From a virus: 20,303 nucleotides of DNA. The notes under the pieces are model-generated. The model was given only the letters and a program-made list of their open reading frames with translations. It searched no databases and was not told where the DNA came from. Both the position numbers and the translations under genes were made by a program. The DNA is taken from the IMG/VR virus record IMGVR_UViG_3300028388_004914, positions 1-20,303 of that record. One strand, 5' to 3'. Every line of letters starts with the position of its first letter. The stretch's first letter is position 1. Of this stretch, positions 2,398-17,614 are shown piece after piece.

Positions 2398-2982
2398 ATG
2401 GCAAATTTTCATCTTTATTCTGAAGCATATTTAGAGCAGATTCAATTTACAAAAAGTGACTTAATTGTAGAAATTGGTAGCGAAAATGGTGAAGGATCTA
2501 CTGCATACTTCGATGCCGTTGCAAAAGATAAACAGGTTGATTTTTATAGTGTGGATGTAGTAGATAATGCAAAAAACAAATGCAGTCATTTAGAACATAC
2601 AAATTGGGTAATTTGTGAATCGGGCTCGAAATGGGCAGACGAGCAGTTACCTTTGCTGGATAAAAAAATTAGACTATTGTATCTTGACAACTATGACTGG
2701 TTACACAATACAAAGAGTCCAGATCCAAAGATTGTTGCAGATTACAACAGCAGAGGCATAGCTGTGTCTAATTTAAGTTGCCAACAAGAACATTTATTGC
2801 AGATGATAAAATGCTTGCCGTATATGCATGATAATTCAATGATTATTTGTGATGATACGCCATTTCAGGAACACAGTGGGATTTATATTGGAAAGTGTGG
2901 TGCAGTTATACCTTATCTACTGTCGTACGGTTATGAGATTGTAAAGTCTGGTGACAACGGTGTTATACTTGTAAGAAAATGA
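2398..2982 (+). CDS. Class I SAM-dependent methyltransferase-like protein
   Basis: I chose the ATG at 2398 because GAGG (2388-2391) lies 6 bases upstream; a TTG at 2386 in the same frame is less likely. The resulting protein has 194 residues. Near the N-terminus is a glycine-rich SAM-binding loop, VEIGSENGEGST (24-35). It is followed by an acidic residue after strand 2 (SVDVV, Asp53), LYLDN (95-99) and a late ICDDTPF (150-156). The arrangement and short length fit the TylF/FkbM-like or Methyltransf_24-like O-methyltransferase group, which often methylates sugars. Its place between two glycosyltransferase-like genes supports sugar or glycan methylation, but this is inference. It overlaps the next gene by ATGA. 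Confidence 0.6.
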   Translation: MANFHLYSEAYLEQIQFTKSDLIVEIGSENGEGSTAYFDAVAKDKQVDFYSVDVVDNAKNKCSHLEHTNWVICESGSKWADEQLPLLDKKIRLLYLDNYDWLHNTKSPDPKIVADYNSRGIAVSNLSCQQEHLLQMIKCLPYMHDNSMIICDDTPFQEHSGIYIGKCGAVIPYLLSYGYEIVKSGDNGVILVRK

Positions 2983-4214
2983 TATTATATTTTGACGACA
3001 ACAATGCGGTAAATTTACACAATGTATCCCAAATAAAAAATGTGCGATCCTTAGACGAAGCTTTATTGCGATATTCTAATTCCAAATTTGAATTTAGATA
3101 TACAAAAAATTATACTCTGCCTGGACTATATCCTGTAGAAGTAAGCAAGCATTCTCATCTTTGGATTGACCAATACTACGATAACTCTGACAGTTTTAAT
3201 TTACTTAAGACTTTGCCTATGCATGTAATAAAGGCTGTGAAACAGCATAAAATTAGGATTGCAATAATAAGCATAGTTGAAGGTGATGATTTTGTTAAGG
3301 AAGACTTTGATGGATTTGCTAGCTTGCACAAAACCATAAATGATTTGAAACTTCCAAAGTTTTCAGTAATTATTGTTTCAGGTAACTTAAATTGTGCTGA
3401 TCAATATGCTGCTTGGTGTGCTAAGAAAAAAACAAGTCCAGTGATTGAATTTACGCACGGTATTGAATGGGACGGCGTGCCTTGGAAAGCACATCAAATC
3501 CGTAAACCCTTGGCATTTACTGCATTAACAAATGCAACAGCAAAATCTTTTAATAGTTTAAACCGAGCACATCGATCTCATAGAACAGATCATTTGTATA
3601 TGTTGTGTAATATTGCAAACTTTAAAGACTTATATGTAAGCGGAGGATCATATTTCGAAAATAACGAACTAAAATCAAAATATATAAATGTGGATGATAA
3701 TTCTTTTACGACAAAATTACAATCACAATATCCGAGAAGTGTTGATGTAGAATCATCTACAATATGTAATAATAATCCTGCGCATTCACTAAACACCAAA
3801 ATCTATGAAAATTCACTGCTTACTGTGGTAACAGAAAGTTCCTACGAAGGAAACGGCTGTTTTATCACAGAAAAAACCTTTAGACCTATTGCGGCCGGAC
3901 ATCCGTTTATCATTCTAGGTCAGCCAAATTTTGTTAATAAACTGCAATCTTTTGGGTTTGAAGCCAATTTCAAAGGGCTAGATTTAAGTTACGATAATAT
4001 CTTATGTGCGGAAAAACGATTCGTTGAATTTCATAAGACATTGAAGCACTGGTATGATTTACCTAGAAAACACAAGAATATTTTGATTCACGATGTATGG
4101 AAAGAGCAAATTCAGCACAATTTTGATTTATATAGAAAGTCAAATTTCAAAAAAATTATGTTTGATGAACTGTTGTGTAGTACAAAAGAGTATTTTAGAT
4201 TGACAGCACTTTAA
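2979..4214 (+). CDS. Glycosyltransferase-like protein with ITEKTFRPI motif
   Basis: The most complete of the three related proteins, at 411 residues. Two family elements are visible: LNRAHRSHR (194-202), a basic segment that precedes the second domain, and ESSYEGNGCFITEKTFRPI (286-304), followed by GHPFIILG and SFGFEAN. The second element is like the C-terminal nucleotide-sugar-binding half of GT10 and GT-B-type enzymes. No signal peptide or membrane segment is seen, so it probably acts in the cytoplasm. The start overlaps the previous stop as ATGA, which suggests coupled translation. A 20-base gap follows, the largest within the first 10 kb. Family membership is fairly secure by motif; the biochemical role is inferred. 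Confidence 0.65.
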   Translation: MILYFDDNNAVNLHNVSQIKNVRSLDEALLRYSNSKFEFRYTKNYTLPGLYPVEVSKHSHLWIDQYYDNSDSFNLLKTLPMHVIKAVKQHKIRIAIISIVEGDDFVKEDFDGFASLHKTINDLKLPKFSVIIVSGNLNCADQYAAWCAKKKTSPVIEFTHGIEWDGVPWKAHQIRKPLAFTALTNATAKSFNSLNRAHRSHRTDHLYMLCNIANFKDLYVSGGSYFENNELKSKYINVDDNSFTTKLQSQYPRSVDVESSTICNNNPAHSLNTKIYENSLLTVVTESSYEGNGCFITEKTFRPIAAGHPFIILGQPNFVNKLQSFGFEANFKGLDLSYDNILCAEKRFVEFHKTLKHWYDLPRKHKNILIHDVWKEQIQHNFDLYRKSNFKKIMFDELLCSTKEYFRLTAL

Positions 4215-4234: not shown

Positions 4235-5260
4235 ATGTATGATATTGTGTACTTTGGCCCACCCACGGACGAATGGTATAATCTTAAAAATAAATATCGC
4301 ACGGCTAAAATAGTCGACACTGTTGAAAAAGCCAAACAAGTTACATTCACCAAAATGTTCTGGTTGGTCTATCCTGATACTTATGTTTGTGATAGTTTTG
4401 ATTTTTCTTACACTGTACCGGACTGGGATCTACAGTACCATCATCTTTTTAAAAACGGAAAATTTTTTGATGGCATAGCGTTAATCAGCAAAAAAAATTT
4501 TCCGAGTAAAAATGAAATAATTTATAGATTTTATATACAGAAAAAAGAAATAGATATTGTTGCAAGTTGTCCAAAGCCATATGATGTTATTTTTATTTCT
4601 TATAACGAACCTAATGCTGATAAAAATTTTGAACTTTTACAAAACAAAATCCCTAGTGTTAAAAGGGTACATGGTATAAAAGGAATTCATAAAGCTCACG
4701 TAGCTGCGGCTGAACTAGCTACTACAGATATGTTTTATGTAGTAGACGGCGATGCTCAAATATACGACGATTTCCATTTTGACTATCAAATCCCCCAATA
4801 CGATATAAATGCAAAAAACACTGTGTATGTTTGGAAAAGCAAGAATCCTGTAAATGGTCTAGTATATGGCTATGGGGGTGTAAAATTACTTCCTAGAAAC
4901 ATGACTATAAATATGGACATTAGCAGCACAGACATGACAACAAGCATCGGATCATTTTTTAAGCCAATGGATGCAACAAGCAATCTTTCTGCATTTGCCA
5001 CAGACGAATTCAGTACCTGGAAGAGTGCTTTCAGAGAATGTGCTAAATTAGCTAGCAAAACAATTCAAGGACAAATAGATGAAGAGACAGAGCAACGCCT
5101 TAAAACTTGGACAACCGTGGGACAAGATCACAACTTTGGTGAATATGCAATTCGAGGTGCTAGGGCTGGTATGCAGTTTGGCATTTCTAATAAGTCTGAT
5201 ATATCATTAATAAATGATTTTGAGTGGTTATATGACAGATTTCAAACAGATTCCGTTTAA
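4235..5260 (+). CDS. GT-A-like glycosyltransferase
   Basis: 341 residues. The central region reads like a GT-A nucleotide-sugar transferase. A strand-rich start (DVIFISYNEPNADKN, about 117-131) leads to a helix and then MFYVVDGDAQ (166-175), where DGDA supplies the metal-binding DxD motif. After this come charged loops and a C-terminal acidic/His element (GQDHNFGEYA). Similar proteins with SYNEPNA and VDGDA motifs occur in T4-like cyanophages. The first 110 residues form a separate domain that I do not recognise. The 20-base gap before the ATG contains no clear ribosome binding site. The gene ends within the next gene (29-base overlap). Likely role: sugar transfer together with the TEKT proteins upstream. 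Confidence 0.6.
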   Translation: MYDIVYFGPPTDEWYNLKNKYRTAKIVDTVEKAKQVTFTKMFWLVYPDTYVCDSFDFSYTVPDWDLQYHHLFKNGKFFDGIALISKKNFPSKNEIIYRFYIQKKEIDIVASCPKPYDVIFISYNEPNADKNFELLQNKIPSVKRVHGIKGIHKAHVAAAELATTDMFYVVDGDAQIYDDFHFDYQIPQYDINAKNTVYVWKSKNPVNGLVYGYGGVKLLPRNMTINMDISSTDMTTSIGSFFKPMDATSNLSAFATDEFSTWKSAFRECAKLASKTIQGQIDEETEQRLKTWTTVGQDHNFGEYAIRGARAGMQFGISNKSDISLINDFEWLYDRFQTDSV

Positions 5261-6131
5261 AGATATTGTAAGATTTGGACAAAAAACTCTTCTAAAGAGC
5301 CATCTTTTCACAGTCTCTTGGATAACCACAAGATATTGTAATTATAACTGCTCATATTGCTGGCCTCATGCTAGATCTAGTGTTGTAGATAAAAAACCAC
5401 TAGAATTGTACCTAAACACTATGGATAGTATCAAGGCACAGGCTCGTGCTAATAATTTTACAGATTTTCACTTTAGCTTTAGCGGCGGTGAACCTACAGC
5501 AAACAAACATTGGTGGAATAAATTCGTTAAATATACTACCACATTGCAACGCAGAAGTATCACAGCAAGTTTTCATGATGAATTTGCCAACGAACAAGAG
5601 TTTGGAGATAAATGCCTTGCACTTATGGAAGGAGGCGTTTATATTACAATAAATCAAGTTATGGTACCTGAAAAGTTTGAAGAGCTGTATCAACGCCTTC
5701 GAAGATTTGCCGATAGGGGAATCAATATTACCCTCAAGCCACAATCTAACCCTACTGCCACAGCAGTAGTTGAAGGCTACACACAGGAACAAATCAACAT
5801 TATGCAAACGGGATTTCCGCAAAAAATCCACGAAAAAGAATTATTAAATGTAGAATTAATAGCCACTGATGGTAAAAAGTATTATATAGATCAAGCCGAG
5901 CGTCTCAATGCATTTGACTTCAATAAATTTAAAGGATGGGAATGTAACGCAGGTTTTCAAAGTTGTGTTGTAAAGAACGATATAGTGTGTCGAAGTTATT
6001 CTTGTCATGACGAACCACTTGGAAACATATATGATGGCTTTGAGTTGTTCAAAACACCTAAGTCCTGTATAACTCATAGTTGTGTAAGCAGTGCAGACAG
6101 TAAAATACCAAAGAAAAATGTGCGTATCTAA
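5232..6131 (+). CDS. Radical SAM protein with C-terminal auxiliary cysteines (1 of 7)
   Basis: I chose the ATG at 5232 (299 residues; GAGTGG a few bases upstream). An in-frame ATG at 5214 would overlap the previous gene further. Cys36-x3-Cys40-x2-Cys43 (CNYNCSYC) binds the radical-generating [4Fe-4S] cluster, and SGGEP (84-88) contacts SAM. The C-terminal 60 residues hold six cysteines (238, 245, 253, 258, 279, 284), in a GN-I-YDGF context like a SPASM or twitch domain, so at least one auxiliary cluster is likely. Enzymes of this layout modify peptides, proteins or small molecules by hydrogen abstraction. It is the first gene of the radical SAM block and overlaps the genes on both sides. The substrate is unknown. 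Confidence 0.85.
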   Translation: MTDFKQIPFKDIVRFGQKTLLKSHLFTVSWITTRYCNYNCSYCWPHARSSVVDKKPLELYLNTMDSIKAQARANNFTDFHFSFSGGEPTANKHWWNKFVKYTTTLQRRSITASFHDEFANEQEFGDKCLALMEGGVYITINQVMVPEKFEELYQRLRRFADRGINITLKPQSNPTATAVVEGYTQEQINIMQTGFPQKIHEKELLNVELIATDGKKYYIDQAERLNAFDFNKFKGWECNAGFQSCVVKNDIVCRSYSCHDEPLGNIYDGFELFKTPKSCITHSCVSSADSKIPKKNVRI

Positions 6132-6744
6132 ACTATTAGTATACAAAGCAGAAAGTTGGTCTGTGAAGAAGGCACAAGAGTTCCATAATAACTCTTTTCC
6201 TGGACATCCCAGTGAAGATTTAAAGTATATTTGGGAATCCCACGGAAATGATTGGTTATTGTATAGAGATTCAGATGCAAAATTGTTTGCAAATAACGGT
6301 GTTATATATAAAGTAAGTACAATGTCACGCAAAGAAGACTGGGAAGCACATCGAGCACTTTTTGATATCACTTCGATACCTATAGAAATACCAATAAAAT
6401 ACGAGGATTTAGGAAAATTTAAATACACGGTTGTTCAAAGGCCCTATAATGTATTAGGAATATCCTTATCAGAAACTGTCGTTAGTGGAAATTTGGATGA
6501 AAATTATTTACGACGTATGGTAGATAATCATAAATTATTATTTAAAGACTTATCAAAATTGGGAAAAGGATATCCAATCCCGCCAAAATGGTGTGATAGT
6601 GACGTTACTGGATTTTGGACTGATTTCAAATACTGGAAATATTCCAAAGAAGAATATGTGGAGTTTTATACGTGCAGTATAAATAAAATCTTAGAAAACT
6701 TTAATTTGAATTTTGATAAGGATGACATAAATTTATGGAACTAG
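6118..6744 (+). CDS. Unknown protein, possibly kinase-like N-lobe
   Basis: I take the ATG at 6118 (208 residues, 14-base overlap with the previous gene). A GTG at 6091 is an alternative that would overlap more. I do not recognise the family. Residues 50-105 run as a series of short strands with Tyr-Lys-Val (Lys65), then an acidic helix with Glu76, then VVQRP (105-109). This is loosely the order of a protein-kinase-like N-lobe (ATP-binding Lys, helix C Glu, hinge). A convincing catalytic HxD or DFG motif is not seen, so the resemblance may be chance. The C-terminal third is rich in aromatic residues (GFWTDFKYWKY). It sits between a radical SAM enzyme and an aminotransferase and has no signal peptide. 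Confidence 0.5.
   Translation: MCVSKLLVYKAESWSVKKAQEFHNNSFPGHPSEDLKYIWESHGNDWLLYRDSDAKLFANNGVIYKVSTMSRKEDWEAHRALFDITSIPIEIPIKYEDLGKFKYTVVQRPYNVLGISLSETVVSGNLDENYLRRMVDNHKLLFKDLSKLGKGYPIPPKWCDSDVTGFWTDFKYWKYSKEEYVEFYTCSINKILENFNLNFDKDDINLWN
6678..6685 (+). promoter_or_regulatory. Possible T4-type late promoter, inside a gene
   Basis: The exact octamer TATAAATA lies on the plus strand near the 3' end of the unknown gene at 6118, about 50 bases before the small gene at 6735. If used, transcription would start near 6691 and serve the small gene and the aminotransferase. In sequence this AT-rich a few chance matches per 20 kb are expected, so position is the only support. Confidence 0.2.
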
Positions 6745-6923
6745 TTGAATATAAAATGTTCAAAGACAATAAACTGGTTTATAGAAATACTTGTCCTGCC
6801 TTATTTTTTATAGGCATAGTTCCTGTGCTAGAAGTTGATTTATATGATTACATTGAGATAAAATATAAGGGTACAATAACAATATACTATGCAGATGGGA
6901 TTGTAAATAAATGGAAGCAATAA
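6735..6923 (+). CDS. Small unknown protein, 62 residues
   Basis: The ATG at 6735 overlaps the preceding stop by 10 bases, and the stop overlaps the start of the aminotransferase gene by 13 bases. This tight spacing argues that it is a real gene despite its size. The protein is rich in Ile, Val and Tyr, with alternating hydrophobic and polar residues (VLEVDLYDYIEIKYKGTITI, about 31-50) that suggest a small all-beta fold. There is one cysteine and no signal peptide. I do not recognise it. It lacks the leader/core look of a RiPP precursor (no Gly-Gly site, no Cys/Ser/Thr-rich end), but its position among modifying enzymes makes a carrier, substrate or recognition subunit possible. Confidence 0.5.
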   Translation: MELVEYKMFKDNKLVYRNTCPALFFIGIVPVLEVDLYDYIEIKYKGTITIYYADGIVNKWKQ

Positions 6924-7693
6924 TAAATTTATCACAAAATGTTTGTTACGATAAGCATTTGAAATTTGAACTAGATTACAATTCTTACGGTAAACACAGT
7001 GTATGCTTGGATATCCTCAAAAAACATTATCACTGTAATAATATTGATATTGGCTACGGAATAAGCGAACTAATATCCAGAATTATGTTTTTTTTCAAGC
7101 AGAATAACCTAAAACTTACAATTTGTAAGAATGCTTGGCCAGGATTTGCAGAAATGCAAAAGTCAATGGACGTATTATCAGGCAACGATGTATATTATCT
7201 AGTTAATCCTAGTGGTATCAATGGAGAACAACTGACAAAAAGCCAGGTGACCGATTTGGCAAAGCAATACAAGTATATTGTTGTGGACGAAGCATATGGA
7301 GATTTTTTTGAAAACTCCGTTATTGATTGTCGAACTAATAACATGATAATTCTAAAAACATTGTCTAAAAGTATCGCTAGTCCAGGTGTCAGGTTTGGGT
7401 GGTGTATTGCACCTACAGAAGTTATTGATACAATTTCAACTATCAGACCACGAAGTTGCACAGTTGGCGGAATACAAGATCAATTAGAAGCAATGTTAGC
7501 AGAGATACCTAATCATGTAAAACGCATGATTGAAACTAGAAACTTTTTAGAAAGTAACTATAATTGCACAAAAAGCTACGGAAATTATGTTTTGTTCAAC
7601 ACCCCTAACAAATATACAGAGAAATTTATCTGCAAACAGATAGGAAATCATTACAGAATGGCTCTGGTTGACATGGATACATTAAATGAGTGA
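6911..7693 (+). CDS. HisC-like PLP aminotransferase, shortened
   Basis: The 260-residue protein has the core of a fold-type I class I/II aminotransferase near histidinol-phosphate aminotransferase. Features are NPSG (99-102), VVDEAYG (124-130, Asp126 pairing with the PLP nitrogen), TLSKS (150-154, Lys153 forming the Schiff base) and GVRFGW (159-164, Arg161 binding phosphate). The family is usually about 350 residues. Here the N-terminal arm is short, and the protein stops after a segment like that before the last strand-helix unit of the small domain, so the usual substrate-carboxylate arginine region is reduced. All core catalytic residues are present. It would move an amino group to or from an alpha-keto acid or keto sugar. 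It overlaps both neighbours, the next radical SAM gene by 8 bases. Confidence 0.8.
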   Translation: MEAIINLSQNVCYDKHLKFELDYNSYGKHSVCLDILKKHYHCNNIDIGYGISELISRIMFFFKQNNLKLTICKNAWPGFAEMQKSMDVLSGNDVYYLVNPSGINGEQLTKSQVTDLAKQYKYIVVDEAYGDFFENSVIDCRTNNMIILKTLSKSIASPGVRFGWCIAPTEVIDTISTIRPRSCTVGGIQDQLEAMLAEIPNHVKRMIETRNFLESNYNCTKSYGNYVLFNTPNKYTEKFICKQIGNHYRMALVDMDTLNE

Positions 7694-8492
7694 TTTCTAC
7701 ATCTTAAGACAGCAACAAAGCCAAGGGGCAACAGATCTATTGTCAACTTTAAGAACAGTTGAGATTAATGCCGTTGACATATGCAATAGATCCTGCAAGT
7801 TTTGTCCACAGAGTCAGGGGTACAAGCCCAAGAAAGGTTTTTTTGATATAGAACTGATAGAAAAAATAGCAAATGATCTGCAAGCAATAGAATATAATGG
7901 CCGGGTAAGTTTTACAGGTTTTGGTGAACCCTTGCTTTACAAAAATTTGTATGAAGCCATAGAAGTGCTGAATAAAGTTATTAAGAATATATCTTGGATC
8001 GAGGTAGTTACGAATGCTGATTATTTAAACAAACAAGTAGCTAAAAATTTATACGATAGTGGTTGTACTAATGTTACTGTGAGCATGTACGATGAAGATA
8101 TTTCTGATACCATAGCAAAATATTTTCTGGACACAAATATTAATTTGAATTTCAAATATCAATACAAAGGTTTTATAGTAGTAAACAGAAATGAAATAGT
8201 AGCCAAAGAAACAGACCTAGACATAAACAGACCATGTTATCTTCCTTTTTACAAAATGATGATTGATATTGATGGACAGGTCTTAATCTGTGCAAACGAC
8301 TGGGCAAGGTCTGGTATAGTAGGAAATGTACACAGAGATACTATTAAAGATATTTGGTTAGGAGAATCTATTAATTTTTATAGAAAACAACTGGCAAGAG
8401 GAAAACGTCAAAATTGTATGCCTTGTAAATTCTGTGACATAAACGGAACATTACATGGAGAAGAGTCTTTTAAACTTTGGAGAAATTACTAA
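7686..8492 (+). CDS. Radical SAM-SPASM protein (2 of 7)
   Basis: 268 residues with the full layout of a radical SAM-SPASM enzyme. Cys33-x3-Cys37-x2-Cys40 (CNRSCKFC) binds the catalytic cluster, TGFGEP (77-82) contacts SAM, and VVTN (107-110) follows. A compact SPASM domain has Cys184, then MIDIDGQVLIC (192-202), VGNVHRDTIKDIW and a final Cys244-x2-Cys247-x2-Cys250. This is the textbook pattern of anaerobic-sulfatase-maturase and peptide-modifying relatives, and it is the cleanest SPASM match in the window. Many such enzymes act on ribosomal peptides or proteins, others on sugars and small molecules. Its stop overlaps the start of the QueC-like gene (TAATG), so the two are likely translated together and may act in sequence. 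Confidence 0.9.
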   Translation: MSDFYILRQQQSQGATDLLSTLRTVEINAVDICNRSCKFCPQSQGYKPKKGFFDIELIEKIANDLQAIEYNGRVSFTGFGEPLLYKNLYEAIEVLNKVIKNISWIEVVTNADYLNKQVAKNLYDSGCTNVTVSMYDEDISDTIAKYFLDTNINLNFKYQYKGFIVVNRNEIVAKETDLDINRPCYLPFYKMMIDIDGQVLICANDWARSGIVGNVHRDTIKDIWLGESINFYRKQLARGKRQNCMPCKFCDINGTLHGEESFKLWRNY

Positions 8493-9043
8493 TGCAAATT
8501 ATTTGCGGCCCAAATTGGGACAGGCGTGTTGTAAATATCGATCATAAGGAAGATGCTGGCATTTTGATGAGCGGCGGAATAGATAGTTGGGTTTTATATA
8601 ATCTAATACAAGGACCTGTGAAAATATTCAACTATAAAAGGCACAATGGCATTGATTCTATACATCAAGTTGAATTATTAACTGGAAGAAGAGATATAAT
8701 AGAGATTATACAGGACAAGCCAAATAAAAAATTTATTGATTATGCGGCCGACTATATAAAAGAATATTGTTCAAGTCTATATATTGGAATAAATCATATT
8801 CCTCCGATAGATATTTTTCCAGAATTTGCAGACGATTACCCAATACGACCCTGGAGATCATTAGATAGTAATTTGTTGATGCCATTTTTACATGTGCAAA
8901 AATATCATATCATAGACATTGCTAGACAAAAGAAGATTGACTTATCTCTTACACAAAGTTGTCTAGTAAATGCTAACGGACATTGTGGAAAGTGTTGGCA
9001 GTGTTTAGAAAGAAAATGGGGATTTGATCAATTAGATGACTAA
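8492..9043 (+). CDS. QueC-like PP-loop ATPase with zinc site
   Basis: I place the start at the ATG at 8492, which overlaps the previous stop as TAATG (183 residues); a TTG at 8477 is the alternative. The PP-loop SGGIDS (27-32) marks an N-type ATP pyrophosphatase that adenylates a carboxylate. Near the C-terminus TQSC (Cys157) and HCGKCWQC (Cys165, 168, 171) match the zinc-binding tetrad of QueC, which makes 7-cyano-7-deazaguanine; the following ERKWGF also fits. QueC is usually about 220-230 residues, so this one is short. No other deazaguanine gene (FolE, QueD, TGT/DpdA) is visible here, so it may work on another carboxylate, making an amide or nitrile. QueC-like proteins also occur in anti-phage systems such as Qat and type IV CBASS. 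Confidence 0.75.
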   Translation: MQIICGPNWDRRVVNIDHKEDAGILMSGGIDSWVLYNLIQGPVKIFNYKRHNGIDSIHQVELLTGRRDIIEIIQDKPNKKFIDYAADYIKEYCSSLYIGINHIPPIDIFPEFADDYPIRPWRSLDSNLLMPFLHVQKYHIIDIARQKKIDLSLTQSCLVNANGHCGKCWQCLERKWGFDQLDD

Positions 9044-10073
9044 AACACTTTGCGCATATCCGTGGCACGGAATGGCTATTCGGCCAAATGGCACACAATT
9101 ACCATGCTGTATATTTCAAGGCATACCGGACTGGAGCGATATACGAAATAAACAGTTACGCGGAGAAAGACTAGAAGGGTGTGCTTTGTGTTACAACAAC
9201 GAAAGTCATGGTATTAAAAGTTTGAGACAAAATAGTTTTAATCGAATGCCTACACCTTCGACATCTCACGCAGGTGATTTAATTTTTTTGGAACTTGCCT
9301 TTAGTAATTTGTGTGATACTGCATGTATGCATTGTAGTTCAGATTTTAGTACAAGATGGGGAAATAGTAAAGTAGCGCATAATATCAATATAGATTCGTT
9401 AGAGTTGTCAAAGGTAAAATACCTAAAAGTTATAGGGGGTGAACCTATGTTAGAACAAGATAAGTTTAATGAATGCCTAGATAGAATGAACATTGCTGAT
9501 TTATCCATGCAAATTTGTACAAACGGCCGATCTTTTCCCAATAGTAGATTGTTGAAGCATATAGAAATGTCAAAAGCTACGTTAATTGTAGTCAGCATGG
9601 ACGGAATTGAGGGAGTAAATGACTGGTTTCGTTGGCCTAGTAAATGGATTCAATTACAAGAACAATTCTCCAAATACGACAAATTGCATAGAGAAAATAT
9701 TTTTCTGCATTTTCATTGTTGCATCAATGTATACAACATTTTTTATCTTAAAGAAACCGTTGATTATGTGTTAACACGATGGCCTAATTGGAAAATAGAG
9801 TGGGATTGGGTAGATCAACCTTCATGGCAAAGTATTAGTGTACTTCCAGAAGATATAAAACAACAACTGAAGATCGAATTACTAGCACATTCTAAAGAAT
9901 ACAAAGATTTATCAAGATTATGTGATGTAGATCCTTTTGCATCTAGTGCCAGCAGATTAGATACTGTATTGTCTACCAACTGGCAAGAATGTGTAAGATA
10001 TACAAAAAAGTTTGCACAAAAACGAAACCTAGACCTAACTGCCCTCATACCTAAATTTGCTAAATTATTATAA
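9036..10073 (+). CDS. Radical SAM protein, twitch type with N-terminal cysteine domain (3 of 7)
   Basis: 345 residues. The N-terminal 60 residues hold a SPASM-like half domain (CAYPWHGMAIRPNGTQLPCC, Cys6, 24, 25; then Cys49 and Cys52). Next is the radical SAM core: Cys93-x3-Cys97-x2-Cys100 (CDTACMHC), GGEP (134-137) and CTNG. In this family, common in T4-like cyanophages and annotated as twitch domain-containing radical SAM proteins, the auxiliary-cluster domain comes first instead of last. The next gene encodes a longer relative with the same order, so the pair looks like an ancient tandem duplication. The reaction is unknown. It overlaps the QueC-like gene by 8 bases and is followed by a 14-base gap. 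Confidence 0.85.
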   Translation: MTKTLCAYPWHGMAIRPNGTQLPCCIFQGIPDWSDIRNKQLRGERLEGCALCYNNESHGIKSLRQNSFNRMPTPSTSHAGDLIFLELAFSNLCDTACMHCSSDFSTRWGNSKVAHNINIDSLELSKVKYLKVIGGEPMLEQDKFNECLDRMNIADLSMQICTNGRSFPNSRLLKHIEMSKATLIVVSMDGIEGVNDWFRWPSKWIQLQEQFSKYDKLHRENIFLHFHCCINVYNIFYLKETVDYVLTRWPNWKIEWDWVDQPSWQSISVLPEDIKQQLKIELLAHSKEYKDLSRLCDVDPFASSASRLDTVLSTNWQECVRYTKKFAQKRNLDLTALIPKFAKLL

Positions 10074-10087
10074 CGAAAGAGTATAAA

Positions 10088-11476
10088 ATGGAAGATAGAG
10101 CTAAAAATTTTATAAAACAAATGCAACAAAAAACAGGCACTGATAAATTCTGTGTGTTGCCGTGGATACATGTAGCTACGAGACCAAATGGCGATGCAAG
10201 ATTGTGTTGCGGCTCAAATGCAAGTCAAGCTACCAACGGCATTCTAGATGCTGGTAATATAAAAAAAGAAAACGGCGAACCTGCAAATTTTGGCAAAGAA
10301 AATTTATATTCTGCAATAAACAACGAATATATGCGTAATGTACGAACAACCATGCTTGCTGGCGATATTCCCTTAAGTTGTACCAAGTGCTTTGAAGAGG
10401 AAGCAAATGGAATGATTAGTAAAAGGCTGTGGGAAAGTTTTTGGTGGCAAGAAGAAGAGGGCACTAGTTTTGAAGATTTAATTTCTGAAACATCAGATGA
10501 TGGCACTATACCCAATAAAGTAGAGTACCTAGATCTACGTTTAGGGCATACGTGTAATCTAAAATGTGTTATGTGTACTCCAAATGACAGTTCTCGTTGG
10601 ACGCAAGATTACGATAAATTAATTGCCACAACTTCCGATCCACAAATACATAAACAGGTCAACTTTGACGCATCTAAATTTAATAATAAATGGTATGAAC
10701 GGCCAGAATTATGGAATGAAATATTCCAACAGATTCCTAATATAAAACAACTATATTTTGCAGGCGGCGAGCCCTTGATGATCAAAGAGCATAGAAAGTT
10801 ATTGGAAGAGGTTATACGCCAAGGCTATGCAAATCAAATTACCCTTAGGTATAATTCAAACGGAACCTTGGTCGAAGATTGGATACTTGAACTTTGGTCT
10901 CATTTTAAACAAGTCAAATATGGATTTAGTATAGATGATATAGAAGATCGGAACCACTATATTAGATACCCTACCAAATGGCAAACTATTGTAGATACAT
11001 TACATAAATTAGATAAAACACCTGATAACATAGTGGTAAGTATTGCATGTGCTGTTCAGGTATTTAACATATTACATGTCACAGAATTTGCCAAATGGGT
11101 GATATCCCAAAACTTCCAAAAAATTAACAAAAGTGTTTATCAAGGGGTTGAAACAGGTGGGGGTATTATCAGTATGCATCTGCTATATATTCCTACGTTT
11201 TTGAGTGCTAGGATTCTACCACAGGAAGACAAAGCTAAACTTCGTGATAAGTTTTTAGAATTTAAAGACTGGTTGTGGAACAATTATCGTCAAGACGACG
11301 ACTTCTGGAAGTATAATCCAAACGGATGGAAGCGTTGGGAGGGTTTGTTAAGTTTTGTTGAAGCAGAAGATCACAGCAACTTGCTGACAACATTCAAACA
11401 ATATGTAGACAGCTTAGATCGTATCAGAGGTCTAAATGCTAAAGAAATTTTTCCTGAGCTAGAGCATTTATTATGA
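10088..11476 (+). CDS. Radical SAM protein, twitch type, long paralogue (4 of 7)
   Basis: At 462 residues this is the largest radical SAM protein here. The N-terminal domain has FCVLPWIHVATRPNGDARLC (21-40), with Cys22, 40 and 41, then after about 55 residues Cys98-x2-Cys101. The radical SAM core follows: Cys156-x3-Cys160-x2-Cys163 (CNLKCVMC) and AGGEP (225-229). The C-terminal 150 residues are rich in Trp and charged residues and unlike the shorter paralogue. A 14-base gap precedes the ATG, with AAAGAG as the likely ribosome binding site. This is the only gene of the radical SAM block that does not overlap its upstream neighbour. It shares ATGA with the next gene. Its function is unknown; the N-terminal clusters may bind or position a peptide or nucleotide-linked substrate. 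Confidence 0.85.
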   Translation: MEDRAKNFIKQMQQKTGTDKFCVLPWIHVATRPNGDARLCCGSNASQATNGILDAGNIKKENGEPANFGKENLYSAINNEYMRNVRTTMLAGDIPLSCTKCFEEEANGMISKRLWESFWWQEEEGTSFEDLISETSDDGTIPNKVEYLDLRLGHTCNLKCVMCTPNDSSRWTQDYDKLIATTSDPQIHKQVNFDASKFNNKWYERPELWNEIFQQIPNIKQLYFAGGEPLMIKEHRKLLEEVIRQGYANQITLRYNSNGTLVEDWILELWSHFKQVKYGFSIDDIEDRNHYIRYPTKWQTIVDTLHKLDKTPDNIVVSIACAVQVFNILHVTEFAKWVISQNFQKINKSVYQGVETGGGIISMHLLYIPTFLSARILPQEDKAKLRDKFLEFKDWLWNNYRQDDDFWKYNPNGWKRWEGLLSFVEAEDHSNLLTTFKQYVDSLDRIRGLNAKEIFPELEHLL

Positions 11477-12432
11477 TATCAAAAATCGTCACAGACTATA
11501 AAGATAATCTAGATGTTGAGCTAATGCTCAGTAATGTCTGTAATTATAAATGTCATTATTGCTTTCCTGGATTCAATGAAGGCAGTTTGAAATGGCCCAG
11601 TGATAACTATGATTTGCTAGTTAGTAATGTCAAACATTTGTTTGAATACTATAAAACCAATCTCGGTAAGAAAAAATTTCATGTAAAAATTATGGGAGGT
11701 GAACCTACTGTATGGTCTGACCTTCCAAAGTTTGTTTATGATTTAAAACAGGCAGAGGAATGCTATGTTAGAATGTCTACCAATGCTTCAAGAACATTGC
11801 GATATTGGAAGGAAAAATCAAATCTTTTTGATCAGATTATAATTTCTGTACACAATGAATTTTCTGATATAGATCATATTATCGATGTAGCAAATCATAT
11901 ATATGAAACTAAGAAGTCAAATTTATATGTTACTGTGTTAATGGATCCTTATAATTGGGAAATATCTGTAAGAAATTTTGAATTTTTACTGAATAATAGC
12001 TGCAATTGGCACCTCGCAGTAGCACCGGTTAATTTTGAAGGTAGCACAAGATACAATTATAAACAGTTAGAATACCTTAATAATGCGCCAAAGAGAACTG
12101 CACTGCAACCTATAGATTTTTACACAGGATTATCTGCTCCTTTGTTTTTAGATGAAGATAATAATACTGTTGACACAGATCAGCATAAAATTATTACTAA
12201 TAAAAAAAATTGTTTCAAAGGATTCAAGTGTAATATAGGCTTAGATAAAATTTTTGTATACGGAGATGGAGAAATCAAAGGTGCGTGTGGTCAAAAGTTT
12301 TTCAACAATGTTAATTTATATTCAACAAATTTTATAAAACAACTTGAATCTAATATATTGCAGCCCAGTATTTGCACACAAGACTTTTGTTCTTGCAGTT
12401 CTGAAGTTATACTAACAAAGAGCATTGTATGA
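11473..12432 (+). CDS. Radical SAM protein with C-terminal auxiliary cysteines (5 of 7)
   Basis: 319 residues. Cys23-x3-Cys27-x2-Cys30 (CNYKCHYC) binds the catalytic cluster and MGGEPT (74-79) contacts SAM. The C-terminal third contains Cys247, Cys253, Cys272, Cys301, Cys306 and Cys308, with a KIFVYGDGEIKGAC stretch resembling the central strand pair of SPASM/twitch domains; one auxiliary cluster is likely. Overall it is the nearest relative in the window of the protein at 5232 (same CNYxCxYC and GGEPT forms, similar length and cysteine spacing), although the remaining sequence is well diverged. Translation is probably coupled on both sides, with ATGA overlaps to the previous and next genes. 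Confidence 0.85.
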   Translation: MISKIVTDYKDNLDVELMLSNVCNYKCHYCFPGFNEGSLKWPSDNYDLLVSNVKHLFEYYKTNLGKKKFHVKIMGGEPTVWSDLPKFVYDLKQAEECYVRMSTNASRTLRYWKEKSNLFDQIIISVHNEFSDIDHIIDVANHIYETKKSNLYVTVLMDPYNWEISVRNFEFLLNNSCNWHLAVAPVNFEGSTRYNYKQLEYLNNAPKRTALQPIDFYTGLSAPLFLDEDNNTVDTDQHKIITNKKNCFKGFKCNIGLDKIFVYGDGEIKGACGQKFFNNVNLYSTNFIKQLESNILQPSICTQDFCSCSSEVILTKSIV

Positions 12433-13031
12433 AATTAGATATAGAAGATATAATGTTTTGGATGGATGCTATTCGCAACAGCGATGACAGATATCGTACA
12501 CTAGAAAGTTTTTGGAAAGGACAAATCAAAAGCAAAGTCTGGCTCATTGAAAATCTAGAACATCATATAGATACCGAACCCAAGAATGTTATTATACACG
12601 GAGGATGGAATGGAGTTCTTGCCAGTCTTATTTTTAATAGTGAGATTAATGCTATACAAATTACAAGTTTAGACGTAGATCCGGCATGCGAGAAAATTGC
12701 CCTTACAATGAACAAAAGACAAGAAATTGAAGGAAGATTTACTGCTGTTACTGCTGACATGTGCAATTATAAGTATAGTGCAGACATTGTGATCAATACA
12801 AGTTGTGAACATATCACACAAGAACAATACGAACAATGGTTAAGAAATGTTCCTGACAATGCTATCGTTGTATTGCAAAGCAATGACTATTTCCAGTTAA
12901 ATGAACATGTTCGTTGTGTAAATAATAACACTGAGTTTTTAGAACAGTCTAAAATTAAACCGTTACAAGTATATGAAATGAGACTACCTAAGTATACTCG
13001 TTTTATGATTATTGGAAAAAAGAATGTATAA
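12429..13031 (+). CDS. Class I SAM-dependent methyltransferase, marine-phage type
   Basis: The 200-residue protein has a variant SAM-binding loop HGGWNGVLAS (57-66), an acidic end of strand 2 in LDVDP (81-85), ADM (109-111) contacting the adenine, and VINTSCEH (121-128) in the place of the usual motif IV. The HGGW, NTSCEH and YTRFMIIG (189-196) signatures are those of a family seen in many T4-like cyanophages and annotated as methyltransferases. The target is unknown; DNA N-methyltransferase motifs (DPPY and similar) are absent. It lies between two radical SAM genes with a 4-base overlap upstream and an 8-base overlap downstream, so methylation is probably one step of the same pathway. Confidence 0.75.
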   Translation: MKLDIEDIMFWMDAIRNSDDRYRTLESFWKGQIKSKVWLIENLEHHIDTEPKNVIIHGGWNGVLASLIFNSEINAIQITSLDVDPACEKIALTMNKRQEIEGRFTAVTADMCNYKYSADIVINTSCEHITQEQYEQWLRNVPDNAIVVLQSNDYFQLNEHVRCVNNNTEFLEQSKIKPLQVYEMRLPKYTRFMIIGKKNV

Positions 13032-14160
13032 ATTTATTCATGATACTATAAGCCTATGTAATGAATGTTATAGACACATTCCTGCCATTGTATACGAGCA
13101 TGAAGAAACAATCAAAATGCGTAAAGAGTGTCCTGTACATGGCAAGCAAAAAAGTATTGTAGAAATAGATCCTGAGTTCTATTATGGCTTAAATCATACT
13201 AGAGATGTGCCTCAATTCAATTATGTTTTTTTCGAGGCAACTGATCGGTGTCAGTTGAATTGTCCTCATTGTTATCATTTACCTGACAATAAGATAACGG
13301 ATAGGCCTATACCTACATTGATACAACAAGTACAACAATTTCCTAAAGATAGTAAAATAATGATTGCAGGAGCAGAACCGACATTAAGGCCTGATTTTGT
13401 AATGTTATGCTCAGACATCAATCAGTTAGATTATGGTGGGTTTAGTGTGCTTACAAATGGTTTGAAATTTGCTTCTGAGGAATTTACAAAACAATGTAAA
13501 AATGCAGGATTGAATCATGTATCATTTGGACTAAACCATCCTGATTATCAAGGTAGGGCTGTACATGATAAACAACTACGAGCAATTGAAGTTTTGAAAC
13601 AACAAGAAATTTACATAGGTTACGTAGGATATACCATAAAGTCATTAGAAGAATTGCCTTATATATTAGAAGAAATCGAAAGACTACATGTCCCTATTAA
13701 TAATTCAAATAAAGATATGCCTACTACAGGAATAAGCCATTATAGAATTAGATGTGGCAGTTTTATAGGTAGGAGTAGTGATAATAAAAGAAGCTTCTTA
13801 AGCGATACATTTAAGCGTATTACAGAATTATTAGGTGATGTTGAAATAGGAAGTTTAGGAGACGATAATCCTTATCACATAATGATTAAAAAAGGTGATA
13901 TTAAAATTAGGGTAATTCAATGGCCTGATAAAACAAATATAGATATGGAAGAGTTAGCTTCTGGACCATGGAGTAATTTCTACAATGGACCTATCACTAA
14001 TTTTGTACATCAAACCATTATGCGTGATGCATTTGTAAACAGAAGTCTTCCTATTTTAGATACTGTACCAGAAAAATATCAATATAAATCAGTAGGAGAA
14101 CATATCTACTGGAAAAATAATTGGAAAGGTCCTATTGAATGTTCAACTTTAAAGATTTAA
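13024..14160 (+). CDS. Radical SAM protein with N-terminal zinc-knuckle, Tes/MJ0619-like (6 of 7)
   Basis: I start at the ATG at 13024 (378 residues), preceded by GGAAAAAAGA; a TTG at 13012 is less likely. Residues 12-39 form a small metal-binding domain: Cys12-x2-Cys15, then Cys36-x2-His39 in KECPVHG. This cap followed by a radical SAM core is the layout of the family that includes tetraether lipid synthase and the MJ0619 methanopterin methylase. The core has Cys76-x3-Cys80-x2-Cys83 (CQLNCPHC), but the SAM-contact motif reads AGAEPT (115-120), not GGEP. Relatives often act on unactivated carbons, joining lipid chains or transferring methyl groups. The length is shorter than Tes (about 500 residues). 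The substrate here is unknown. Confidence 0.8.
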   Translation: MYKFIHDTISLCNECYRHIPAIVYEHEETIKMRKECPVHGKQKSIVEIDPEFYYGLNHTRDVPQFNYVFFEATDRCQLNCPHCYHLPDNKITDRPIPTLIQQVQQFPKDSKIMIAGAEPTLRPDFVMLCSDINQLDYGGFSVLTNGLKFASEEFTKQCKNAGLNHVSFGLNHPDYQGRAVHDKQLRAIEVLKQQEIYIGYVGYTIKSLEELPYILEEIERLHVPINNSNKDMPTTGISHYRIRCGSFIGRSSDNKRSFLSDTFKRITELLGDVEIGSLGDDNPYHIMIKKGDIKIRVIQWPDKTNIDMEELASGPWSNFYNGPITNFVHQTIMRDAFVNRSLPILDTVPEKYQYKSVGEHIYWKNNWKGPIECSTLKI

Positions 14161-15221
14161 AATCTGTTCATGTAGAACTTAGTACTCGTTGTCAGGCAAG
14201 TTGTCCTATGTGCGCAAGGAATAATCATGGAGGTTTACCTAATCCTAATCTAAAAATCGCCGATATGAGCTTAGATACGTTTAAGAAAATAATTGCACCC
14301 GAAGTTTTAGAAACTGTAAATCATATTTGCTTCTGTGGTAACTTTGGTGATCCGATAATGAATAATGACTTAATCAATATCTGTCGCTACCTTAAACAAA
14401 CCTCAGATATAATAAATGTTCATATTCATACTAATGGCGGAGCAAGATCAGCAGGGTGGTGGCAAGATCTCAAAGAAGCATTGCCAGAAAAACACTGCAT
14501 ATTTTTTGCTATTGACGGATTAGAAGATACCCATCATATATATCGTATTGGGACTACCTATGAAAATGTAATTACAAATGCTAAAACATTTATAGATATA
14601 GGAGGGAAAGCAGAGTGGGTATTCATTAAGTTCGAGCATAACCAACATCAAGCACAAGAAGCAGAACGCAGAAGTAAAGAGCTAGGCTTTGCTCGATTTA
14701 CTATGAAAAACACTAATCGTTTTATCGGCGAAAATAGATTTAGTGTTGTAGATAAAGACGGTCAACATCAGTATAACTTGAAACCGCCATCCGATAACAA
14801 AGTTGCAGAAATAACTAAGCAAGATATTGACCACTTTATGCAAACATACAAATCCTGTAATATTAAGTGTCAAGCAAAAAAAAACAAAGAAATTTATATA
14901 GATGTTCATGGTAGAATTTCTCCCTGTTGTTTCATAGCTCATGCTCCGTACAATACTCCTGATAGTAGAACTATTGTTAAGGAACAAAAAGCACAAATAA
15001 AAAAACAATATTATGATCTTGTTGATGATTTAGGGGGAATCGATAATTTAGATTTGAATCAAAAATCCATAAAAGAAGTTTTTCGCAATCACAAGTGGCA
15101 TACTGTATGGAAAAAATACTGGGGCGAAGAAAAACTTTTAATGTGTGCAAAGACATGCGGGGATTTTAAGAATTCAAAACCCAAAGAACAAATAATCTCT
15201 AATATAATTCACAAAGAGTAA
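14139..15221 (+). CDS. Radical SAM-SPASM protein (7 of 7)
   Basis: 360 residues, last gene of the plus-strand run. Cys18-x3-Cys22-x2-Cys25 (CQASCPMC) binds the catalytic cluster, and NFGDP (68-72) takes the place of GGEP, as is usual in one branch of SPASM proteins. HTNGG (97-101) follows. The C-terminal SPASM-like domain holds Cys240, Cys244, Cys263, Cys264, Cys336 and Cys340, with IYIDVHGRISPCC (252-264) as the central hairpin. The RCQASCPMCARNNHGG start is familiar from a radical SAM family in T4-like cyanophages. The ATG overlaps the previous gene by 22 bases with GGAAAGG upstream. Its stop overlaps by 13 bases the end of the convergent gene on the other strand. Confidence 0.85.
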   Translation: MFNFKDLKSVHVELSTRCQASCPMCARNNHGGLPNPNLKIADMSLDTFKKIIAPEVLETVNHICFCGNFGDPIMNNDLINICRYLKQTSDIINVHIHTNGGARSAGWWQDLKEALPEKHCIFFAIDGLEDTHHIYRIGTTYENVITNAKTFIDIGGKAEWVFIKFEHNQHQAQEAERRSKELGFARFTMKNTNRFIGENRFSVVDKDGQHQYNLKPPSDNKVAEITKQDIDHFMQTYKSCNIKCQAKKNKEIYIDVHGRISPCCFIAHAPYNTPDSRTIVKEQKAQIKKQYYDLVDDLGGIDNLDLNQKSIKEVFRNHKWHTVWKKYWGEEKLLMCAKTCGDFKNSKPKEQIISNIIHKE

Positions 15222-15784: not shown

Positions 15785-16363
15785 TTATGCCTCACTTATT
15801 ACAATATGTACCCTATCCTGTCTGCCTCCATTATACACAAAATGTTTCCTGCGAGTGTCTACTTTGTAAACATAACCGTCGGCGGGGATATGATAACATT
15901 TGGCAGAATATTCATTATGATCTATAACTTCTCCGAAAAATGCTGAAGGATGAGTTATTAAGGCAATATGATATCTTTGTTCTAAATCTTGATGCACTGT
16001 AAGTCCTGTTTTTTCTTGGAGTCGCATATATCTTACACGACCAATTTTGAATCCTATTTTTTTTGCAAGATTTTTTATAAATTTTATAGTATACGGTGCA
16101 TTTTCGATATTAAATTCAGTAAAATCTTTTTCTTTAGCATCGAATTGTTGTAGCGAAGAATTATATAAACTTCCGGTATTGTCAAGCCACTGATCAGAGG
16201 CTCCTGGTCGATAATTAAGGCCTATTTGATTACTAGATAATGTATTGCCTTCGCTGTCATATTTTTTTGGCCAGTTCTGGGCCTCAATTATATTAATGTA
16301 TTCTGTCAATGCCAAATTGAGGTCAATATTATTTTCTGTCTTTGATATAAAATTCATATCCAT
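15785..16363 (-). CDS. Asp/Asn beta-hydroxylase-like 2OG oxygenase
   Basis: 192 residues; the C-terminal 80 carry the double-stranded beta-helix signature of the aspartyl/asparaginyl beta-hydroxylase family. It has His124-x-Asp126 in LTVHQDLEQRYHIAL, where the QRYHIAL stretch (129-135) is typical. YKVDTRRKHFVYNGG (166-180) gives distal His174 and Asn178, and Arg184 in DRVHIVIS would bind 2-oxoglutarate. It should hydroxylate an Asp or Asn side chain or a related group. It overlaps the GNAT-like gene upstream by 10 bases, and the following gene begins immediately after its stop. Because the minus run appears to be expressed late with the structural gene, a virion protein is a reasonable but untested substrate. 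Confidence 0.8.
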   Translation of the reverse strand: MDMNFISKTENNIDLNLALTEYINIIEAQNWPKKYDSEGNTLSSNQIGLNYRPGASDQWLDNTGSLYNSSLQQFDAKEKDFTEFNIENAPYTIKFIKNLAKKIGFKIGRVRYMRLQEKTGLTVHQDLEQRYHIALITHPSAFFGEVIDHNEYSAKCYHIPADGYVYKVDTRRKHFVYNGGRQDRVHIVISEA

Positions 16364-16911
16364 CTACCATATTGTTCCAGCTCTCTATAGAATAATTCAG
16401 CATCTAACTTCCATAATGTTTGCAAGGCTCCTCTATATTTAATTTGCCCGCAATTTTTTACTAGTCCTGTTTTTTCCAGTGCAGGAAAGTAAATTTTGTG
16501 AACCAAGCGTTGTGAACCGCTTTCTAGTTCGTTCGAAGTAACATATAAATTTTTATCATTTCCTGCCCACTCTATGCAAGTAGGTATTAAAAATTGTGCA
16601 GTAGGGTTTTGGTGTTGTTGGATTGTTTTCTTTATGTTTCGTAAGCCATGGTTAGGAAGCTCATCTGTAAATACACAAGTCCTACATGCAATGCGATATG
16701 AGTCTTTATCTAAAAAGTCAAATGTATGTGCCGCAACACATCCCACAGGTTTATTTTTGTAATATAAAATCCAAGTTTTACTTTTCCTTTCGTTTCTAAA
16801 GCAATCGTGTATCCAAAACTGGCTTGTGTTATTTTCAAATCCTTTCTGCTTTGCTTTTGCATAAAATTCTTCAAGGTTTAAATTTGCTGAAAAAGGCACT
16901 ATCTTATACAT
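16354..16911 (-). CDS. GNAT-like acyltransferase (probable)
   Basis: 185 residues. The N-terminal half has the strand pattern of a GNAT acetyltransferase: KTWILYYKNKPVGCVAAHTF (44-63) looks like strands 2-4 around the beta-bulge, followed by CRTCVFTDEL (76-85). The expected R/Q-x-x-G-x-G/A acetyl-CoA loop is not clear; NHGLRNIKKTI (87-97) occupies its place. It could therefore be a divergent member that binds CoA poorly, or one that uses another donor. AAAGGA lies about 8 bases before the ATG. The gene overlaps its upstream neighbour by 8 bases and its downstream neighbour by 10. Together with the flanking oxygenases it suggests decoration of a protein or small molecule. Confidence 0.5.
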   Translation of the reverse strand: MYKIVPFSANLNLEEFYAKAKQKGFENNTSQFWIHDCFRNERKSKTWILYYKNKPVGCVAAHTFDFLDKDSYRIACRTCVFTDELPNHGLRNIKKTIQQHQNPTAQFLIPTCIEWAGNDKNLYVTSNELESGSQRLVHKIYFPALEKTGLVKNCGQIKYRGALQTLWKLDAELFYRELEQYGRWI

Positions 16912-17614
16912 TTAGCAATCCTTTTACTAAATTTTTTGCAGTAGGAAGTGTAGATAAAAATAATTGATATATGTCATCTTCAAATGCTTCAGCATCATGT
17001 ACAATACTAGTGTCAATGAGATATAGTCTGCCTTTTTCTACGTCTTGTATTTTTTCCATGCTTTCAGTTGTTGTATTGTAATAGCTGACATGGAGATTAT
17101 TCGGATCATTTGTGGCCCATAAGCGTAACCATGGCGCCGGAATACAATTATCGATGTGCGGAAAAAATTTTGCACCATTGCCCCATTTTAAAATATTAGA
17201 TCTGCACCAGTGTCCGTCGAAAATCCTTAAGGGTTTGATACTTGGAAGATTTATCAGTTCAGTAGGCACGACACAATCTGATTCAATAATTTTGTTCTTT
17301 GGATGTAAGGCATTATACTCATATAAAGAACCGTTTGTAGGGTCTTGTGTGCGGCTTAAGACACCATCTAAATTGACTAGTGCAATTCCTGATCTTGAAA
17401 GATGCGTATGATTATTGCCCCATTGCTGAAAAAAAGTTTGATAAGATTGTAATTCATTCTGTAGACTATCCATATCCACTATGATAGACGTGGGGGTTAA
17501 AAAACTTTTATGCATGTGTTTATAATCACTATAAGATACAAAGTTGTTGATATTCGCTAACTCTTTCTCAAACACTTTCATTGTGTCGCTGATTATTTTT
17601 TTAGGTTTCAGCAT
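16904..17614 (-). CDS. Asp/Asn-hydroxylase-like cupin oxygenase, large form
   Basis: 236 residues. The C-terminal half has GNGAKFFPHIDNCIPAPWLR (145-164), giving His153-x-Asp155 and Arg164, then a strand pair, and GRLYLIDTSIVHDAEAF (195-211) with distal His206. This is the layout of Asp/Asn-hydroxylase-like 2OG-Fe(II) oxygenases known from T4-like cyanophages. The usual late Arg that binds 2-oxoglutarate is not obvious; the matching strand reads IYQLFLS, so 2OG may be held by another residue, perhaps Arg164. The N-terminal 110 residues include RSGIALVNLDG (74-84), probably part of the same family. It overlaps the upstream gene by 14 bases. Confidence 0.7.
   Translation of the reverse strand: MLKPKKIISDTMKVFEKELANINNFVSYSDYKHMHKSFLTPTSIIVDMDSLQNELQSYQTFFQQWGNNHTHLSRSGIALVNLDGVLSRTQDPTNGSLYEYNALHPKNKIIESDCVVPTELINLPSIKPLRIFDGHWCRSNILKWGNGAKFFPHIDNCIPAPWLRLWATNDPNNLHVSYYNTTTESMEKIQDVEKGRLYLIDTSIVHDAEAFEDDIYQLFLSTLPTAKNLVKGLLNV

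Follow-up and report, generated by a model that had tools for sequence, protein, structure and literature searches.

What does a virus make with seven radical SAM (rSAM) genes in ten kilobases, if it makes any one thing at all? The question is raised by IMG/VR record IMGVR_UViG_3300028388_004914, a 20,303-base fragment that was analysed in its entirety (hereafter the window) and that carries seven rSAM open reading frames (ORFs; R1 to R7) at positions 5214-15221. An earlier note, based on the sequence, had proposed that the gene run is a virus-borne biosynthetic pathway and had asked whether its seven rSAM genes move together in related phages. Four of them do. A core of R1, R4, R5, R7, a methyltransferase (g16) and usually a GT-A-like glycosyltransferase (GT; g06) is inherited jointly by many T4-like phages, whereas R2, R3 and R6 do not travel with it. 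The cassette is thus a conserved core with swap slots, and the seven rSAM genes do not form one unit.

Seven radical SAM genes and a conserved core

ORF calling and Pfam and NCBIfam searches identified one CxxxCxxC core in each of the seven proteins; shuffling of the 25 window proteins gave an expectation of 0.08 proteins with this motif. Six ORFs score above the 29.5-bit cut-off of the Pfam Radical_SAM family (PF04055; R1 36.7, R2 49.2, R4 43.3, R5 44.5, R6 54.9 and R7 33.8 bits). R3 falls below it with 19.0 bits but exceeds the 170-bit cut-off of the full NCBIfam model NF033640 (twitch domain-containing rSAM) with 177 bits, as does R4 with 379 bits. All seven therefore belong to the radical SAM superfamily, R3 via NF033640. 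To our knowledge, no reaction is known for the NF033640 subfamily. The extra cysteine sets that the earlier note had recognised in six of the proteins were likewise recovered. R2 contains a SPASM domain above cut-off (PF13186, 38 bits), R3 and R4 carry an N-terminal set, and R1, R5 and R7 a C-terminal set, with little or no variation across alignments A1, A3 and A4, respectively; R6 encodes an HMPTM N-terminal Zn-ribbon (PF23545, 50.6 bits) in place of such a set. The other enzymes noted between the rSAM genes are an aminotransferase (PF00155, 53 bits; TIGR01141, 71 bits, under cut-off), a QueC-like ATPase (PF06508, 34 bits, C-terminal part only) and the methyltransferase g16, which is weakly matched by Pfam (17.2 bits vs a cut-off of 27).

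Viral scans with R1 yielded 80 loci, and scans with R6 and R4 added 15; family membership was called at thresholds set by us (R1 200, R4 300, R7 120, R5 80, methyltransferase 80 and GT 100 bits). In most viral loci, homologues of R1, g16, R7, R4, R5 and g06 lie together within ~6-8 kb in varying order, and the g06 homologue adjoins R1 in most phage loci. Thinning to R1 identities below 90% and a minimum flank of 7 kb on either side left 15 phage loci, in which R4 (11/15), R7 (10/15), the methyltransferase (10/15), R5 (9/15) and the GT (8/15) occur within 10 kb of R1. Furthermore, between-family distances are correlated in Mantel tests across 27-39 loci (R1-methyltransferase r=0.88, R1-GT 0.73, R1-R4 0.59 and R1-R7 0.34; p=0.001 for all four family pairs), although part of this correlated divergence reflects common descent of the carriers.

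The closest syntenic relative, L169, contains in order R1, g08, g09, the aminotransferase, R2, a fatty acid desaturase-like gene, R4, R5, the methyltransferase, a nitroreductase-like gene and R7, followed by the same downstream flank as in the window; synteny of the flanking genes g20 and g22 is shared with L169, L010 and G019. The places of the desaturase-like and nitroreductase-like genes are held in the window by the QueC-like gene with R3 and by R6, respectively. R6 is also the sole rSAM gene of the 114-kb phage contig G020. R2, R3, R6, the aminotransferase and the QueC-like ATPase thus occupy slots that are filled otherwise in relatives, and QueC-like ATPases of a looser family are found at most 9.5 kb from R1 in ~30 phage loci. 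No relatives were retrieved in viral scans with the aminotransferase and R3; L169, which was found via R2, nonetheless holds the aminotransferase (72%), and because relatives are lost at the pattern pre-filter, failure to appear in these scans carries little weight. The number of PF04055 matches per contig ranges from 1 to 25, with the maximum in G014 (IMGVR_UViG_3300009126_000404, 184 kb). Many of the 25 matches in G014 form a run at about 60-86 kb.

A bacterial counterpart in Bdellovibrionota

Searching genome contigs with the R1 alignment identified 25 loci, ~20 of which are located in Bdellovibrionota metagenome-assembled genomes, on contigs of up to 936 kb. In these bacteria, R1, R4 and R7 are mutual neighbours, often accompanied by g06 and g16 homologues; among 11 loci with wide flanks, R4 is present in 11/11, R7 in 10/11, the GT in 7/11 and the methyltransferase in 6/11. 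The smallest unit, in L130, consists of GT-R4-R1-R7 with gaps of ~110, 10 and 12 bp. R5 was not found beside R1 in Bdellovibrionota loci at the same threshold and thus belongs to the phage version. Across 291 Bdellovibrionota genomes, R1 (E≤1e-60) was detected in 17, core R4 in 15, R7 in 20 and the GT in 18, and the 17 R1-positive genomes include 15 with R7 and 14 with the GT. All 15 genomes with core R4 encode R1 on the same contig, at most 4.3 kb away (Fisher 3e-23). This value overstates the significance, since core R4 was defined post hoc as a high-scoring group (best copy of each genome at ~650 bits or more) and genome relatedness is uncorrected; the physical linkage of R1 and R4 is independent of it.

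In the R1 tree, phage clade A (21 rows, including the window) stands apart from a group containing all Bdellovibrionota sequences and a second phage clade. Mean column identity of R1 is 56% across phages and bacteria, which suggests one fixed substrate. Except for one weak hydroxylase match, no T4-like genes were identified in the Bdellovibrionota loci, making a prophage of the T4-like type, for which the screen was designed, an unlikely source. Five loci labelled as Rickettsiales, Chloroflexi, Acidimicrobiaceae and Gammaproteobacteria (L133, L143-L145 and L147) were excluded, since their grouping with the second phage clade in the R1 tree marks them as probable mis-binned phage contigs; most of them are also dense in rSAM genes. 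In the Bdellovibrionota locus L134 (14349-15590), the methyltransferase homologue carries an additional ~200 aa at its N-terminus as a fusion.

Recurrence in phages and on Bdellovibrionota chromosomes argues that the core is a co-inherited pathway and no random pile. The pathway proposed in the earlier note is accordingly supported for R1, R4, R5, R7, the methyltransferase and the GT-A-like protein, which travel together, and not for all seven rSAM genes as a unit.

Candidate products of the core

We tentatively favour a radical-modified surface glycan over a modified protein as the product of the cassette, because of the GT-A-like partner, the sugar genes nearby, the BlsE-like R7 and the lack of a marker of ribosomally synthesised and post-translationally modified peptides. 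The g06 model (AF2, predicted local distance difference test score (pLDDT) 91) has the GT-A glycosyltransferases SunS, RmlT and GalNAc-T as its top Foldseek matches in the PDB, and the best PDB match of the R7 profile is the cytosylglucuronate decarboxylase BlsE (E 3e-7). In nine bacterial loci, which were hand-picked so that bias is not removed from the tally, 12 of the 48 non-core ORFs belong to GT2, and the remainder include an epimerase, an Asn-synthase-like protein and an acyltransferase. Phage loci contain a nucleoside diphosphate (NDP)-sugar epimerase in 18 cases and UDP-glucose-dehydrogenase-type proteins of two families in 15 loci each; GT2 or epimerase genes are located near many loci, not all. 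None of the 21 phage contigs contained a PqqD/RRE domain at E 0.1, and the most recurrent families include no conserved small ORF (≥40 aa) that accompanies the core, with shorter or distant precursors being possible.

From these observed neighbours and weak fold matches we infer the substrate, the order of reactions and the product. The rSAM enzymes could act in succession on a sugar, on a nucleotide-sugar or on a glycan under assembly and alter it by radical epimerisation, dehydrogenation, deoxygenation or decarboxylation, with g16 methylating it and g06 attaching it. Slot genes, that is the aminotransferase, the QueC-like ATPase, R2, R3 and R6, or the desaturase-like or nitroreductase-like gene of relatives, might vary this product. 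In bacteria it would decorate the envelope, and during infection it could be placed on the host surface, where it would block competing phages, or on the phage's own tail. It is conceivable, if somewhat doubtful, that T4-like phages and Bdellovibrionota share a hitherto undescribed multi-step rSAM pathway (R1, R4 and R7 with the GT-A-like protein and the methyltransferase, plus R5 in phages) to surface sugars or glycoconjugates of a new class, and that some phages amplify this chemistry to 25 rSAM genes in a single genome.

Several findings weigh against a glycan product made by a conserved core. The exceptions among the thinned phage loci form one divergent R1 clade, in which L080, L086, L087 and L089 have no partners nearby and L088 has R4 only. 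The bacterial loci L130, L132, L135, L139 and L141 lie outside the Pfam tally, and housekeeping genes flank those that were checked (the flanks tested contain UvrD, GST, MoxR/DUF58, enoyl-CoA hydratase (ECH) and a TrmB-type methyltransferase). Glycosyltransferases are common in pelagimyophages anyway (PMC7029224), so their proximity is weak evidence, and the GT-A fold matches of g06 are themselves weak (template modelling score ~0.3). Furthermore, the nearest solved folds of the R1 model (L012 copy, pLDDT 87.7), whose C-terminal region holds the extra cysteines, are after MoaA the peptide enzymes anSME, EpeE and TigE, and SkfB is the sole PDB match of the R4 profile. The R5 profile is nearest to TigE, MoaA and others.

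The peptide-enzyme matches of R1 and R4, together with SuiB among the fold neighbours of R1, would fit cross-linking, epimerisation or thiolation by the rSAM enzymes of a protein, such as a tail fibre, or of a separately encoded peptide, with the GT and hydroxylases finishing the product. The top fold match of g06, SunS, is a peptide S-glycosyltransferase, an Asp/Asn-hydroxylase-like gene is present in the shared flank, and a tail-like ORF lies downstream of the cassette (19265-20074). The absence of PqqD/RRE domains and of a conserved small ORF argues against modification of a protein or peptide, as do the short gaps in L130 and an R1 conservation that is unusually high for a peptide maturase. 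On balance we regard it as rather unlikely, though it is the main rival of the glycan reading.

Nucleotide, cofactor or tRNA chemistry of the 7-deazaguanine, viperin-like ddhNTP, pterin or thiolation type is suggested by the QueC-like ATPases nearby, by low-level matches of the R1 and R5 profiles to viperins and of R5 also to MoaA and QueE, and by the resemblance of R6 to pterin and lipid enzymes of the MJ0619/Tes outline. However, the QueC match covers the C-terminal part only and scores 18.2 bits against the TIGR00364 cut-off of 150.3, QueE-family models give only weak, sub-threshold matches to the rSAM ORFs, and the ten main proteins scanned yielded no match to a QueD or FolE family; the window therefore does not qualify as a queuosine/7-deazaguanine pathway, for which a QueC above cut-off and QueD or QueE would be expected. 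GT and methyltransferase partners would also be unexpected, and such chemistry appears improbable. We give similarly little credence to the explanation that there is no pathway, only a hypervariable site at which genes collect and where rSAM genes happen to be numerous. It accounts for the swapping of R2, R3, R6, the aminotransferase and the QueC-like genes between relatives and for the variable gene order, and the pelagimyophage hypervariable region likewise differs by rSAM cassettes (PMC7029224). The scattered, unrelated combinations by which the earlier note would have recognised such a site are indeed seen for these accessory genes as a set, for which the explanation stands; they are not seen for the core, where it is already contradicted by co-occurrence and correlated distances in phages and on bacterial chromosomes.

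The window and its relation to known systems

No hallmark phage genes were recognised by PHROGs in the window, nor were T4 core genes, which are present in relatives: gp13, gp17, gp18, gp20, gp21 and gp23 in G003, gp43, gp44, gp47 and gp55 in G001, and gp17, gp18, gp20, gp21 and gp23 in G020. The phage nature of the window is thus based on its IMG/VR assignment and on the T4-like structural or replication genes of its relatives. The whole window had no megablast match among GenBank phages; in tblastn searches, R1, R5 and g06 had none in 50,697 GenBank phage records, the tail-like ORF had none among GenBank phages, and R4, g16 and R7 had weak matches only.

The R1 copy of the window lacks 30 residues (90 nt, in frame, at ~5505) that are present in 29/29 other non-redundant R1 sequences of A1. 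As the gap removes helix 100-108 and strand 115-122 of the barrel in the R1 model, this copy is probably inactive or mis-assembled, which would leave six of the seven rSAM proteins intact. Outside the gap, the first 600 bases are 85-100% identical to L012 at the DNA level and the remainder 56-84%, with a sharp fall after ~5814; this break points to a recombinant or an assembly chimera.

Features of the cassette and its downstream flank in the window
Feature	Description	Position (strand)	Matches and relatives
g06	GT-A-like glycosyltransferase, frequent core partner, conserved DGD motif	4235..5260 (+)	no Pfam match
R1	core rSAM, C-terminal auxiliary-type cysteines	5214..6131 (+)	PF04055; alignments A1/A7
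g08	accessory, no family assigned	6091..6744 (+)	no Pfam match; kept in L169 (31%)
g09	small accessory ORF	6735..6923 (+)	kept in L169 (44%)
Aminotransferase	HisC/CobD-like, accessory, short form	6911..7693 (+)	PF00155; L169 same length, 72%
R2	accessory rSAM/SPASM	7686..8492 (+)	PF04055 + PF13186; single relative found, L169 71%
g12	QueC-like PP-loop ATPase	8477..9043 (+)	PF06508, 34 bits
R3	accessory N-twitch rSAM	9036..10073 (+)	NF033640
R4	core N-twitch rSAM	10088..11476 (+)	NF033640; alignment A5; co-occurrence
R5	phage-core rSAM, C-terminal auxiliary-type cysteines	11473..12432 (+)	PF04055; alignment A3
g16	core class I-like SAM methyltransferase	12429..13031 (+)	weak Pfam; alignment A2
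R6	accessory rSAM, HMPTM N-terminal Zn-ribbon, TrsS/Tes/MJ0619-like outline	13012..14160 (+)	
R7	core rSAM, SPASM-like C-terminus	14139..15221 (+)	PF04055; BlsE match; alignment A4
g20, g21, g22	downstream flank; g20 Asp/Asn-hydroxylase-like	15785..17614 (-)	PF05118 (g20)

Upstream of the cassette, three ORFs (1-624, 1338-2396 and 2979-4214) share a TEKT-type motif (TEKTxxxI...PF) that is also seen in ORFs of many relatives and of the bacterial L134; they have no Pfam match above cut-off and may be glycosyltransferases. Downstream, HxD...H patterns recognised by eye in g22 (16904-17614) and g23 (17601-18065), neither of which has a Pfam match, suggest two further oxygenases. The ORF at 18065-19207, also without a Pfam match, contains a PP-loop-like TGGVDT motif and appears asparagine-synthetase-like by eye.

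Although rSAM-rich phages have been reported since 2010, we found no explanation for them; they can now be approached through a defined co-inherited gene set, of which the four-gene bacterial unit of L130 is a minimal form open to expression and assay. Should the product be a radical-modified surface sugar, the cassette would add a new type of surface chemistry carried by phages and be a source of new enzymes.

The statement of the earlier note that T4-like phages carry single rSAM genes does not hold. The Campylobacter phages CP220 and CPt10 encode 11 and 12 rSAM proteins, five of them in one interchangeable cluster of 10-12 genes (PMC2853527), phage IBB_35 encodes six (PMC3322345), and 12 rSAM genes are given for the 183-kb T4-like genome TARA_ERS488813_N000010 (PMC5332604). 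Like the carriers of the core, the Campylobacter phages CP220, CPt10 and F379 (Eucampyvirinae/Firehammervirus) are distantly T4-like and hold rSAM modules, and Foldseek against viral models places R1 nearest to rSAM proteins of uncultured phages and Campylobacter phages. In F379, an NDP-sugar-transferase-like gene accompanies the rSAM cluster near tail genes. However, its rSAM proteins match the R5 and R7 profiles at superfamily level only (≤90 bits), the cluster has no match to the R4, methyltransferase and GT profiles, and Campylobacter-phage clusters carry an amidinotransferase that is absent from the window, which does not qualify as such a module. The F379 region (L175, 17244-31575) contains six annotated rSAM genes as well as amidinotransferase, NDP-sugar-transferase-like and haloperoxidase-like genes adjoining the tail genes, and F379 is a cultured phage in which rSAM function could be tested.

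The host-recognition region of pelagimyophages, where rSAM cassettes make up part of the hypervariable region, and Pelagibacter phage Mosig resemble the window in carrying rSAM (MoaA-like), aminotransferase, methyltransferase, nitroreductase and hydroxylase genes (PMC7029224), which, including the MoaA-like genes of Mosig, are located between tail-fibre and baseplate genes. Unlike the window, Mosig has no match to R1, R5 or g06, and its methyltransferase and R7-like ORF are 28% and 25% identical, respectively. TARA_ERS488813_N000010 is likewise a marine T4-like phage with many rSAM genes; compared by description only, it differs in that the accessible part of the source treats these as Fe-S proteins and describes no cassette (PMC5332604). 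No description of the R1/R4/R5/R7/methyltransferase/GT core or of its Bdellovibrionota twin was found in the open-licence literature. Dense rSAM clusters in T4-like phages are thus already published (PMC2853527, PMC5332604), whereas novelty appears to lie in the conservation of the core, in its bacterial counterpart and in the 25 rSAM matches of a single phage contig.

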